DNA of 64,000 nucleotides, from assembly GCF_019704555.1 (NCBI RefSeq), contig NZ_AP024745.1, forward strand, positions 8,502,501 through 8,566,500, in the 5' to 3' direction. Both the position numbers and the translations under genes were made by a program. This document shows, in pieces, positions 25,015 through 27,771 of the stretch. The notes below the pieces were generated by a model. It saw only the letters and a program-made list of their open reading frames with translations, was not told where the DNA came from and searched no databases. This stretch comes from Actinoplanes sp. L3-i22. Its GTDB lineage: Bacteria; Actinomycetota; Actinomycetes; Mycobacteriales; Micromonosporaceae. Positions within the stretch are counted from its first letter, which is position 1, and each line of letters opens with the position of its first letter.

Positions 25015-26358
25015 TCATCCGGCGAGCCGGAAGCGTTCGGCGTGCACCTGGCGCGCCGGCACCCGCAGCCGGCGCAGGCTGTCGATCACGGCGGTGGTCA
25101 TCGCCTCCGGGCCGCACACGTACACGTCCCGGGCGGTGATGTCGGGGACCAGCCCGAGCAGACGGTCCGGCGCGAACGGCTGGTGGTCCGGTCCGGAGCG
25201 TCCCGTGATCAGGTGCAGGCGGGCCCGGCGTACGTCCGCCAGGTTTTTCAATTCCCCCAGCAGGACCGCGTCATGCGCGTCGCGCACCCGGTAGAGGACG
25301 ACCACGTGCCCGGTCAGCGCCGAGTCCTCGAGCAGCGCCCGGATCGGGGTGACGCCGATCCCGCCGGCGATCAGGACGGTCGCCCCGCGGACCCGGTGGG
25401 CCAGGGTGAACGCGCCGTACGGCCCCTCGGCGTAGACCCGCGCCCCGATCGCCAGGTCCCGCAGGCCGGCGCTGGTCGCCCCGATGCCCTTCGCGGTGAG
25501 CCGCAACGAGCGGCTGTTCGGCGCGGCGGACAGCGAGAACGGGTTGACCTGCCACCACCCGTTGTGACCGGGGAACCGCCAGAGGAAGAACTGCCCGGCG
25601 GCGGCCGGCAGCCGGTCCAGCGAGCGGCCGGTGACGTGGACCGAGACGGTGTCCCCGGATTCTTCGACGACCGCGGCGACCCGCAGCCGGTGCCGCGAGT
25701 TGCGGATCATCGGGACGATCAGCCGGCCGGTGATCAGGGCGCCGAGCGCGAACGCCCACAGCCCCCACCAGTAGACCTGCGTGAACAGGTTGACCTTGAA
25801 CGCGGTGCCCTCGTAGACCTGGTGCAGCACCCCGAGCAGGACGACCACGTAGAGCAGCAGGTGGATGGTGTGCCAGGCCTCGTAGGACAGCCGGCGCCGG
25901 GCCGCCCGGATCGACAGCACGACGATCACCACGACCAGGGCGGCGGCGCTCATGCCGAGCAGGACCGGGGGCTGTTTGCCCAGGTTGACCACCTCGGCGA
26001 GGAACGAGATGCCGTCCAGCCGGGCGAAGCCGAGCAGCACGAACGCCGGGTGGGCCAGGACCAGCCAGAAGATCGCCATGCCGGTCCAGCGGTGCCAGTG
26101 GGTGAGGCGGTCCATGCCGTACGCCCGGTCGACCACCGGGAGGCGGGCCACCAGCAGCAGTTGCAGGGCCATCACGAGCGCCAGGTAGAGGCCGAGCAGC
26201 CGGCCGATCGTACCCAGGATGTTCTTGCCCGGGCCGGCGGCGACGAACATCAGCTGCACGGCGACCAGGTTGATCACGACGAAGGCGACGATCGCGACGC
26301 GTGCGAGGCGGATCGAGCGCCGGAAGGTGAGGACTCGAGGCTGGGTCACGGCAGTCAT
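25015..26358 (-). CDS. Ferric-reductase-like transmembrane flavoprotein (FNR fused to haem-binding membrane domain)
   Basis: 447 residues from the ATG preceded by GGAGGA. About six membrane segments in residues 15-230 hold paired histidines (HWHRWTGMAIFWLVLAH, AWHTIHLLLYVVVLLGVLHQ) suited to two haems. An FAD domain (VNPFSLSAAP) and an NAD(P) domain (LIAGGIGVTPIRALLED, VYVCGPEAMTTAV) follow. It would pass electrons from NAD(P)H across the membrane to ferric iron or oxygen. It starts only 70 bases after the tRNA trio on the same strand. Confidence 0.88.
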   Translation of the reverse strand: MTAVTQPRVLTFRRSIRLARVAIVAFVVINLVAVQLMFVAAGPGKNILGTIGRLLGLYLALVMALQLLLVARLPVVDRAYGMDRLTHWHRWTGMAIFWLVLAHPAFVLLGFARLDGISFLAEVVNLGKQPPVLLGMSAAALVVVIVVLSIRAARRRLSYEAWHTIHLLLYVVVLLGVLHQVYEGTAFKVNLFTQVYWWGLWAFALGALITGRLIVPMIRNSRHRLRVAAVVEESGDTVSVHVTGRSLDRLPAAAGQFFLWRFPGHNGWWQVNPFSLSAAPNSRSLRLTAKGIGATSAGLRDLAIGARVYAEGPYGAFTLAHRVRGATVLIAGGIGVTPIRALLEDSALTGHVVVLYRVRDAHDAVLLGELKNLADVRRARLHLITGRSGPDHQPFAPDRLLGLVPDITARDVYVCGPEAMTTAVIDSLRRLRVPARQVHAERFRLAG

Positions 26359-26428
26359 CCCGGATCTCCTCCCCTGGTGGGGCTGCTGTTGCCGGGGTGT
26401 ACCTCCGGTCCGGACATCCGGTTCAACG

Positions 26429-26499
26429 AGATCGCAGCCGGATTCGAACCGGCGTGTACCGCTTTGCAGGCGGTCCCCTGGCCACTCGGGCATGCGATC
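26429..26499 (-). tRNA. tRNA-Cys(GCA), divergent copy
   Basis: 71 nt. Acceptor arms GATCGCA and TGCGATC pair perfectly, the anticodon arm is ACCGC-CTGCAAA-GCGGT with anticodon GCA, and the T arm is GCCGG-TTCGAAT-CCGGC. CCA is not encoded. The acceptor stem differs from the usual actinobacterial tRNA-Cys (GGTGG-type), so this is probably an extra isoacceptor. It is third in the array. Confidence 0.85.
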
Positions 26500-26525
26500 G
26501 TGTGAAAGATCGGGTGACAAATACG

Positions 26526-26606
26526 TGCGGGCGACAGGATTCGAACCTGCTCAGCGAAGCACCCGGTTTACAGCCGGGCCCGACTCTCCAGCGTCGGCGC
26601 GCCCAC
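26526..26606 (-). tRNA. tRNA-Tyr(GTA), long variable arm
   Basis: 81 nt. Acceptor GTGGGCG pairs with CGCCCGC (one T-G pair). The anticodon arm is CCCGG-CTGTAAA-CCGGG with anticodon GTA. The extended variable region TGCTTCGCTGA is the type II arm expected of bacterial tRNA-Tyr, and the T loop is TTCGAAT. It lies only five bases after the preceding tRNA. Confidence 0.8.
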
Positions 26607-26611
26607 TCCAG

Positions 26612-26685
26612 TGCCCTCGGCGCGACTCGAACGCGCACCACCGGCGTCCTCAACGCCGGGCCTCTGCCAGTTGGGCTACGAGGGC
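26612..26685 (-). tRNA. tRNA with GAG anticodon but short variable loop (atypical Leu or undetermined)
   Basis: 74 nt. Acceptor GCCCTCG pairs with CGAGGGC, discriminator A. The anticodon arm CGGCG-TTGAGGA-CGCCG gives anticodon GAG, which reads CUC and CUU (Leu). The variable loop is GTGGT, five bases, whereas bacterial tRNA-Leu has a long type II arm. The T arm is GCGCG-TTCGAGT-CGCGC and the D stem is weak (GCC/GGC). The structure is sound, but its charging identity is open. Confidence 0.75.
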
Positions 26686-26720
26686 TTTGCACATCGCGAA
26701 CAAAAAGAGGGGCTTGCAAA

Positions 26721-26770
26721 TCAAGAACAAAAACAAAAAAGCCGCCTTTCCCGTACGGAGGGAAGGCGGC
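26721..26770 (-). terminator. Intrinsic terminator between leader ORF and tRNA array (putative attenuator)
   Basis: On the minus strand GCCGCCTTCCC (26770-26760) pairs with GGGAAAGGCGGC (26752-26741) with one bulge, loop of seven, followed by TTTTTTGTTTTTGTTC. It stands between the leader peptide and the first tRNA. Its 5' arm can alternatively pair with leader codons 12-14 (26795-26802 with 26765-26772), which would disrupt the terminator. Confidence 0.85.
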
Positions 26771-26788
26771 GCGTACGCACGAGCGGTC

Positions 26789-26836
26789 TCAGCCGCGCCA
26801 CCGGTCCGGGGCGAGATAAAGGCGCGTACACAGCAT
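26789..26836 (-). CDS. Putative 15-residue leader peptide MLCTRLYLAPDRWRG
   Basis: A short frame with ATG nine bases after AGGAG and a TGA stop. It contains Leu x3, Cys and Tyr. The codons are CTG, TGT, CTT, TAT and CTC. TGT, CTT, TAT and CTC are read by the GCA, GAG and GUA anticodons of the three tRNAs downstream, and TGT, CTT and TAT are rare in DNA of this composition. The CTT-TAT-CTC run at codons 6-8 is about 20 bases before the region that can pair with the terminator arm. Translation is not proven; the reading as an attenuation leader is inference. Confidence 0.55.
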   Translation of the reverse strand: MLCTRLYLAPDRWRG

Positions 26837-26879
26837 GATCGTGATCTCCTGATCGTTTGATCGTTGGAAGCTGTGCTCG

Positions 26880-26908
26880 AACCTAATCGGCCCGCCCCGG
26901 ACCGGCAA
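26880..26908 (-). promoter_or_regulatory. Predicted sigma-70-type promoter of the leader/tRNA unit
   Basis: On the minus strand TTGCCG (26908-26903), a 17-base spacer and TAGGTT (26885-26880). The start of transcription would fall near 26873, giving a leader of about 37 bases before the small ORF. Between lie four GATC-containing units (CGATCA repeats), a possible site for a regulator. Confidence 0.5.
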
Positions 26909-26913
26909 CGCAT

Positions 26914-27771
26914 TTACGCGACGATGTGGAACGCCTTGTTCTGGGTCAGCGCGGCCAGCTGCGCCGTGGTGTACGGCAACTCGGCGAGCGCCGGCTTGTC
27001 GAAGATAGACTTCCTGGCCTGCGCCACGAAGACCACGGTCCCGTCGGCGTAGCGGTACGCCGCGTACTGGTCGACCCCGGTGTCACCGGCCGGCGGCCGG
27101 GCCACGCCCACCTTCGCGCCGCCGACCTGGACCACCTCGCACGTCCCGGCCTTCTGCCCCCAGAACGACTGGGCCAGCGCGCACGGATCGGTGGGCAGGG
27201 TGTTCTCCGGCTCGTGGACCTCCACGTCGAGCTGGCCGGCCGCCCGGTCCTTGGTGACCACGACGCTCGCCAGGTAGGACCACTCCGGGTTCTCGATCGC
27301 CGCCTGGTGCGTCTGGTACTCGGTGCCCTGGTCGTCCTTGCCGGCCGGCGTCCCGTAGCCCTTGGGCACCACCTTCAGCAGGTCGGTGAGCAGCTGCTTG
27401 CCCTTCTGGTAGCGCGGGCCGGTGTCGGCGGTGGCGTCCCCGCTCGCCTCGGCCGGCCAGGACGGCTTGGTGTCCTCGGGCGCCGGTACGCCGTCGCTGG
27501 GCCCGGGCGTCGGCATCCCGCTGGGCAGCGCGCTCGCCGCCGGGCCGGCCACCTGGATGTCGCCGGAGCCGGACGGCCCCTGCGACAGGTAGCGGGCCGG
27601 GACGATGGTCACCGCGGCCAGCGCCGCGACCGCGCCGGCGCAGGCCAGGACGGTGCGCCGGCGGGCGGCCCGTTTTCCGGCGGTGACCGCCGCGGACGAC
27701 TCCATCGGCGGTGGTTCCGGGCTCTGCGTCAGCACGCTGCGCAGGGCGTCGCGGAATTCGTTCTCCTCCAT
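26914..27771 (-). CDS. Membrane-anchored partner protein of the SigE-type sigma factor (CU044_5270-like)
   Basis: 285 residues from the ATG preceded by GAGGGGG. A charged N-terminal segment (EENEFRDALRSVLTQ), one membrane segment (TVLACAGAVAALAAVTIVP, about residues 39-57), a proline/alanine linker, then a domain outside the cell of about 170 residues ending QLAALTQNKAFHIVA. It follows the sigma gene by 11 bases. Such pairs are common in actinomycetes, and a role as anti-sigma or sensor is inferred from position only. Confidence 0.75.
   Translation of the reverse strand: MEENEFRDALRSVLTQSPEPPPMESSAAVTAGKRAARRRTVLACAGAVAALAAVTIVPARYLSQGPSGSGDIQVAGPAASALPSGMPTPGPSDGVPAPEDTKPSWPAEASGDATADTGPRYQKGKQLLTDLLKVVPKGYGTPAGKDDQGTEYQTHQAAIENPEWSYLASVVVTKDRAAGQLDVEVHEPENTLPTDPCALAQSFWGQKAGTCEVVQVGGAKVGVARPPAGDTGVDQYAAYRYADGTVVFVAQARKSIFDKPALAELPYTTAQLAALTQNKAFHIVA

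Follow-up and report, generated by a model that had tools for sequence, protein, structure and literature searches.

A putative leader-peptide attenuator of an Actinoplanes tRNA operon and its relatives before accessory tRNA arrays of actinomycetes and viral contigs

A leader, a terminator and three tRNA genes

The window, a 64,000-nt stretch (71% G+C) of the 12.0-Mb, single-contig genome of Actinoplanes sp. L3-i22, carries on its minus strand an array of tRNA-Leu(GAG) (26611..26685; ARAGORN, Rfam), tRNA-Tyr(GTA) (26525..26606; ARAGORN), and tRNA-Cys(GCA) (26428..26499; ARAGORN, Rfam). At its gathering score, Rfam reports only Leu and Cys of this trio. An ECF sigma factor gene and then a second ORF, ending at 26914, lie on the 5' side of the region, and a ferric-reductase-like gene lies 3' of the tRNAs.

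Upstream of the tRNAs on the same strand lies a promoter-like element (26880..26908), in which a 17-nt spacer separates a −35 box, TTGCCG (26908-26903), from a −10 box, TAGGTT (26885-26880); we would predict a leader transcript starting near 26873. A Shine-Dalgarno sequence, AGGAG (26846..26850), precedes a 15-codon leader ORF, MLCTRLYLAPDRWRG (26789..26836), recognized from its sequence and by comparison, in which UGU (codon 3), CUU (codon 6), UAU (codon 7), and CUC (codon 8) are the proposed sensing codons. An intrinsic terminator hairpin is predicted at 26741..26770 (−19.4 kcal/mol), followed by a T-rich tail (26728..26740, running to about 26728). The hairpin is kept in the lowest-energy fold, and an equally good folding arose in 3 of 200 shuffles. 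Sequence, ARAGORN, and fold thus bear out the original prediction, which had placed promoter-like boxes, a ribosome site, the ORF, a terminator, and three tRNAs here on the minus strand. A simple consensus scan of 26000-27500 listed neither promoter nor terminator, probably because the stem is bulged and the −35 box atypical.

The end of the leader contains a candidate antiterminator strand, GGUGGCGCG (26794..26802, inside codons 12-15), predicted to pair with CGCGCCGCC (26765..26773), which overlaps the terminator 5' arm. The sequence and duplex prediction give a helix of 9 bp (26802-26794 with 26773-26765) with one G-U pair, one base pair longer than the 8-bp helix first described. Antitermination governed by tRNA status would liken this locus to T-box riboswitches, which differ in binding uncharged tRNA directly. 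A T-box was ruled out in the window, where Rfam at the gathering threshold gives tRNA matches only.

Three of the sensing codons are rare at this G+C content, as had been claimed: TGT, CTT, and TAT occur at 0.8, 1.6, and 2.2 per 1000 among the 17,055 codons of 49 GC3-rich window ORFs. CTC, at 29 per 1000 in the same ORFs, is not rare. By itself, the codon match of the window leader is only mildly improbable (P about 0.02 that 14 random codons include each of C, Y, and L; P = 0.003 if at least three L are required). Comparison raises it far above chance, because all six Leu-Tyr-Cys loci, the window included, have both the ORF and the terminator, and because 110 arrays, described below, follow the same rule. 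The contrary outcome, a trio locus without one of the two elements, was not seen.

Of 200 family genomes, 7 matched a pattern built on the ORF end, each with a single match before this array; all 7 belong to the same genus, which contributes 36 genomes. The array is Leu-Tyr-Cys in six of the seven. Two orthologous loci act as natural experiments. In L007, ARAGORN gives Leu and Tyr alone in a 3.4-kb locus, without tRNA-Cys, and codon 3 of the leader, MLYARLYLAPDRWRG, is TAT (Tyr); the six others have TGT or TGC there. In L008, the array consists of Tyr and Cys without tRNA-Leu, and the leader, MYRTYCRPDRWCG, is without Leu.

The source genome has 77 tRNA matches, and further copies of Tyr (L069), Leu(GAG) (L076), and Cys (L041, L042, L077) lie elsewhere. 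The clustered tRNA genes are therefore redundant with other genomic copies, as is characteristic of an accessory array, and the window attenuator would control a reserve set. Two of the 49 distinct upstream sites of tRNAs in this genome pass the leader rules given below: that of the window array and that of a 23-tRNA array at 8.96 Mb (L087) serving 16 amino acids. The leader of the latter, MRWQTSSKPQRETLRAEGVAARSGQPRMSLIMDLPVHREPKSGPEWWRG, contains exactly the 16 amino acids of its array and none of C, F, N, and Y (P about 0.001 for exactly that set with random codons of window composition).

Other tRNA surroundings in this genome are worth recording. The 23-tRNA array has a translation GTPase gene with EF-G domains (Pfam; L242:3514-5544, about 8.95 Mb) at a distance of about 4 kb. 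An apparent duplication consists of two Gly-Cys-Val tRNA clusters (10417752-10418051 and 10430335-10430614), separated by about 12.6 kb, that share their anticodons and have identical scores. L077 (6.306 Mb) comprises a Cys-Ala pair with a tRNA called Asp(atc) and has no leader; it is perhaps a relic of another array.

Leaders surveyed and their amino-acid content

For the family sample, about 97 clusters were chosen among the matches listed, and 80 further regions around tRNA matches were taken. We scanned 183 tRNA upstream sites from 93 family loci (among the matches listed); at 77 of these, a hairpin at least as stable as −12 kcal/mol, with a T-rich tail, lay no more than 130 nt away. A leader was accepted under fixed rules: a ribosome site, a stop codon followed by the hairpin at 5-32 nt, and no more than 150 nt between hairpin and tRNA. 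Candidate starts were ranked on ribosome-site score, with codon type and then length as successive tie-breakers, and composition was not used. Of the 93 family loci (among the matches listed), 69 gave a row, with 67 distinct leaders, and removal of two duplicate leaders and of L157, whose array holds undetermined tRNAs, left 66 rows. The other 24 of these 93 listed loci had no passing site under the fixed rules; in one of them, the L012/L089 array, a leader-like ORF and hairpin are visible by eye further upstream.

A terminator plus tRNA-Trp pattern found 57 loci in genome_contigs, 43 of them with a leader, from which dropping 8 duplicates left 35 rows. These leaders come from Actinoplanes, Dactylosporangium, Micromonospora, Plantactinospora, Asanoa, Catenuloplanes, Salinispora, and other Micromonosporaceae and, outside that family, from Thermocatellispora and Nostocoides. 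Among the 14 loci without a row, L182 and L194 have a leader by eye (that of L182 exceeds 60 codons), two Gordonia loci have none by eye, L179 and L220 are truncated or unclear, and the eight from other phyla were assessed through the scan alone. The same pattern matched 11 IMG/VR contigs, and a looser one matched 21, including those 11; a Nonomuraea plasmid array also has a leader. A third set, made up of viral contigs from the 11-contig search together with L238, L182, and L194 and allowing leaders of up to 70 codons, added 9 rows, for a total of 110 nonredundant leader/array rows (66 + 35 + 9). Six further viral leaders were read but stand outside the statistics.

The leader attenuator is not universal among tRNA arrays, since 24 of the 93 family loci (among the matches listed) gave no passing site and no such leader was seen in the stretches examined of the Mycobacterium/Tsukamurella plasmid arrays L236, L237, and L239. 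Pattern scans of 396 phylum and 296 class genomes gave no matches; the patterns also miss the source genome itself and so are silent on absence.

To compare leader content with arrays, each array-served amino acid was treated as a cell, and leaders were counted without the start codon and the last five codons. The null consisted of swaps preserving row and column sums, that is, leader richness and amino-acid frequency. Over 110 rows, 878 of 921 cells were present in the leader against 761.4 in the null (sd 6.55). The match persists among 46 leaders less than 40% identical (389/405; null 325.9, sd 4.7) and among 22 less than 30% identical (182/187; null 153.3, sd 3.5). It is complete for the 51 arrays of at most 6 amino acids (197/197; null 143.5, sd 4.2) and reaches 258/281 in the 16 arrays of at least 16 amino acids (null 250.8, sd 1.7). 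The first 66 rows gave 522/534 against 452.1 (sd 4.8) with swaps, and plain permutations agreed. Coverage stays at 878 cells if three final codons are omitted instead of five and falls by 41 if eight are.

The match has a z of 17.6 in the ORF frame, −1.3 to 0.9 in the five other frames, and −0.2 in the segment directly 5' of the ORF. Its confinement to the ORF frame argues that the ORF is read in that frame. An artefact of composition or length was ruled out by the margin-preserving swaps and the other-frame translations. The claim that leader codons match the downstream tRNAs thus extends from one locus to 110 leader/array pairs, in the ORF frame only. Going beyond that claim, the leader rule is widespread among accessory tRNA arrays, including the 23-tRNA array of the source genome and those of viral contigs.

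The 43 missing cells are spread over 23 of the 110 rows. Seven fall in L203, whose leader is cut by the locus end, five array amino acids are missing in L238 and four in L226, and tandem leaders account for three misses. L224 (Paractinoplanes ferrugineus) and L219 (Actinoplanes sp. M2I2) each have two leader-terminator units in series, the gaps of the second leader being filled by the first: W in L224, and G and W in L219. By eye, L202 resembles a remnant of the tandem form that has lost its first leader. Where the array has tRNA-Trp, 73 of 77 leaders contain a Trp codon ahead of their last five codons, compared with 9 of 33 where it does not; the four misses are L203 (cut leader), L219 and L224 (tandem), and L221. 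Amino acids absent from the array are nevertheless found in the leader in 664 of 1279 cells. Part of this surplus stems from the truncation of arrays at locus ends: an array was taken to stop at a gap of more than 700 nt or where its locus stopped, so that some tRNAs are hidden. It would otherwise be expected if codons disappear from leaders later than tRNAs from arrays, or if surplus codons are harmless.

Codon choice, paired structures and promoter-like elements

At the codon level, 29 classes were tested, without correction for relatedness or for the number of tests. Several are enriched where the array carries the matching anticodon: Lys AAA (7/12 with tRNA-Lys(UUU) vs 0/24 without), Leu CTC/CTT (81/205 vs 17/109), Leu TTG (19/109 vs 10/205), Arg AGG/AGA (7/50 vs 3/201), Gln CAA (14/49 vs 8/84), and Gly GGA/GGG (33/85 vs 17/90). 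No significant link was seen among these 29 classes for most classes of Glu, Thr, Val, Ala, Pro, and Ser, for Ile, or for Leu CTG, Leu CTA, and Arg CGG. The link between leader and array therefore appears to reach the codon level in part. Leaders favor U-ending wobble codons: TGT makes up 45 of 94 leader Cys codons versus 14 of 128 in window ORFs, and TAT makes up 47 of 95 leader Tyr codons versus 37 of 386. The Nostocoides jenkinsii array (L200) comprises Trp, Leu(CAA), Lys(UUU), Gln(UUG), Pro, Asn, Glu(UUC), and Gly(UCC), and on reading, the AAA, CAA, GAA, GGA, and TTG codons of its leader match the anticodons of the array.

Over most of the ORF, 14-nt leader windows pair with the terminator 5' arm at a predicted mean of about −6 to −9.5 kcal/mol. 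Complementarity peaks directly before the stop, at −18.0 kcal/mol, against −13.1 for shuffled windows there (110 leaders). The mean is −23.25 for cognate pairs against −20.99 for re-dealt pairs (20 deals, whose means vary with an sd of 0.18); the terminators themselves average −22.4. The median gap is 20 nt from stop to hairpin and 24 nt from hairpin to tRNA (110 rows for each), the smallest cited for the latter being 8 nt, in L006. A loose promoter pattern (TTG[AC]C, 16-20 nt, [TC][AT]nnnT), searched within 135 nt upstream of leaders, occurs upstream of 70 of 110 leaders; mononucleotide shuffles gave a mean of 2.2 and a maximum of 7. By eye, an AT-rich AAAT stretch lies 5' of the −35 box.

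These loci have the hallmarks of an attenuator, namely a short translatable ORF that has a ribosome site and precedes the regulated genes, regulatory codons that relate to the product, and, in the predicted structures, a mutually exclusive antiterminator and intrinsic terminator. Actinomycete attenuators have been described or predicted for trp, trpS, and leuS (PMC1262725). The present loci resemble such trp-type attenuators in having a leader ORF, regulatory codons, and a choice between antiterminator and terminator set by ribosome position (PMC1262725). They differ in that the regulated genes are tRNAs, in that the leader lists the whole tRNA set of the operon where theirs repeats one codon, and in that no separate 1:2 hairpin is established. 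The idea of trp-type attenuation acting on tRNA genes gains support from the comparison, through the match at the amino-acid level and in several codon classes, the antiterminator/terminator pair, and the promoter-like element upstream.

A roll-call model and its alternatives

On these grounds, the window very probably contains a ribosome-mediated transcription attenuator of an accessory tRNA operon, which appears to be one of a family lying before accessory tRNA arrays of actinomycetes and viral contigs. RNA polymerase would start upstream of the leader, and a ribosome would translate the leader as a roll-call of the array's tRNAs. If all codons were decoded, the ribosome at the stop would cover the antiterminator strand, the terminator would form, and the tRNAs would go unmade. 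If a listed tRNA were short, an upstream stall would leave the antiterminator strand free to pair with the terminator 5' arm, and readthrough would transcribe the array; we infer that low charged tRNA would in this way raise array expression. The U-ending wobble codons (UGU, UAU, CUU) plausibly heighten sensitivity. A ribosome usually covers about 12-15 nt downstream, and from this footprint, a window ribosome whose A site holds codon 8 would extend to about 26803 and keep clear of 26802-26794, and one at the stop would cover 26802-26794 and not the hairpin. A ribosome stalled within the final codons may itself mask the antiterminator, and the listed codons need therefore not all be effective.

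The strongest rival is a general sensor of translation stress, in which any stalled or absent ribosome, through antibiotic or starvation, permits the antiterminator, the codons matter little, and the match to the tRNAs is incidental. The same geometry would indeed answer ribosome-blocking drugs, and such drugs induce the Anabaena trn array (PMC10272220). A sensor of this kind, however, would need neither in-frame codon tracking, nor an anticodon-level match in several classes, nor the tracking of single tRNA losses, and we consider it improbable. A much weaker case can be made for shared ancestry, by which large arrays would descend from one long-leader ancestor and small arrays would be partial deletions that inherited the match. 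Many long leaders do share MLWQ..PQRL..GRWRT-like features, but the match persists below 30% leader identity (182/187 cells), and inheritance would require codons and tRNAs to be lost together; we give this account very little weight.

Still less credit is due to two readings that would sever leader from tRNAs. If the terminator merely ended the upstream transcript and the tRNAs had their own promoter after the hairpin, the window would offer some latitude, with its hairpin about 145-173 nt past the stop codon of the upstream gene and 55 nt from the first tRNA. In the orthologues L002-L007, however, the hairpin-to-tRNA distance is 8-31 nt (median 24 nt over the 110 rows), the 8 nt of L006 leave no room there for a promoter, and promoter-like elements sit upstream of leaders. 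An independent promoter after the terminator was thus rejected for want of room in the orthologues, and the unrelated-neighbor reading is scarcely credible. Equally far-fetched is a functional small protein that the tRNAs follow by chance, for which a recurring, GRWRG-like C terminus and a ribosome site could be cited. That C terminus coincides with the antiterminator strand, and across 42 pairs of leaders equal in length (65-97% identical), the three codon positions differ about equally often (311, 297, and 318). The leader peptide is therefore not conserved as a protein, and a functional peptide was rejected on this ground; the peptide sequence appears to be free and its amino-acid inventory constrained.

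Returning to the attenuator reading, the arrays likely serve as an emergency reserve set for destroyed or exhausted tRNAs; for a reserve directed against tRNA destruction in particular, the chances are about even. On a broader proposition, we are evenly divided: that these are mobile tRNA banks of actinomycetes and viruses, whose leaders check the inventory with peptides that can be pangrams of up to 20 amino acids, such that loss of any single tRNA species to tRNA-cleaving toxins or anti-phage defenses would release the whole replacement set. If true, this would be a new kind of autogenous control of tRNA supply and a direct handle on the purpose of large tRNA arrays. The leader would tell which shortages an array answers, a testable prediction bearing on why bacteria and phages keep large redundant arrays. 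The leader rule would also allow such arrays to be located from sequence and might provide a reporter of tRNA depletion.

A targeted search of the open-licence literature, covering titles and abstract openings, found no description of leader peptides before tRNA arrays. Within that literature, these would be the first known tRNA operons under leader peptides that enumerate the operon's own products, and also the first sensor in which one peptide checks up to 20 tRNAs. PMC10272220 describes the trn operon of Anabaena PCC 7120 as a silent array switched on by translational stress under the repressor TrcR. As in our loci, an accessory array there stands beside a housekeeping set; in contrast, control there lies with TrcR, and the text has no match for attenuat, leader, or terminat (PMC10272220). 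PMC5966550, on mycobacterial tRNA arrays, likewise has no match for promoter, terminator, or leader. Phage tRNA sets have been proposed to counter tRNA-cleaving host defenses, per the abstract of PMC10264068. They share with our viral arrays the carriage of tRNA genes on phages, some in large sets, and differ in that this abstract mentions no control by a tRNA-listing leader (PMC10264068).

Among the viral forms, the 35-tRNA array of L227 adjoins a terminase-like gene (PHROG match, E 4e-8), and its leader, MSRSPSKQQLRGWYFHAPAAATLPEDNCIPTNKAVVV, contains all 20 amino acids, the start counted. All 20 also occur in L098, L231, and L234, making four of the 110 leaders, and in L249, which stands outside the statistics. 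When one viral-contig leader was compared with known phages, tblastn gave one weak match (E 0.3) and megablast none. The leader of the IMG/VR contig L230 is the same as that of a Catenuloplanes locus. Several neighboring genes, placed from rough ORF calls, also caught our attention. On another IMG/VR contig, a polynucleotide-kinase-like gene (PHROG; L232:9543-10019) lies near the tRNA array, and a role in tRNA repair is possible. HNH endonuclease genes lie within tRNA arrays at L243:10516-11076 and L233:5351-5803; such genes in mycobacterial tRNA arrays are reported in PMC5966550. A TROVE/Ro60-like gene directly follows the 30-tRNA array of L098 (L098:4777-6363), and the record of Streptomyces phage Phredrick annotates a Ro-like protein among its tRNAs.
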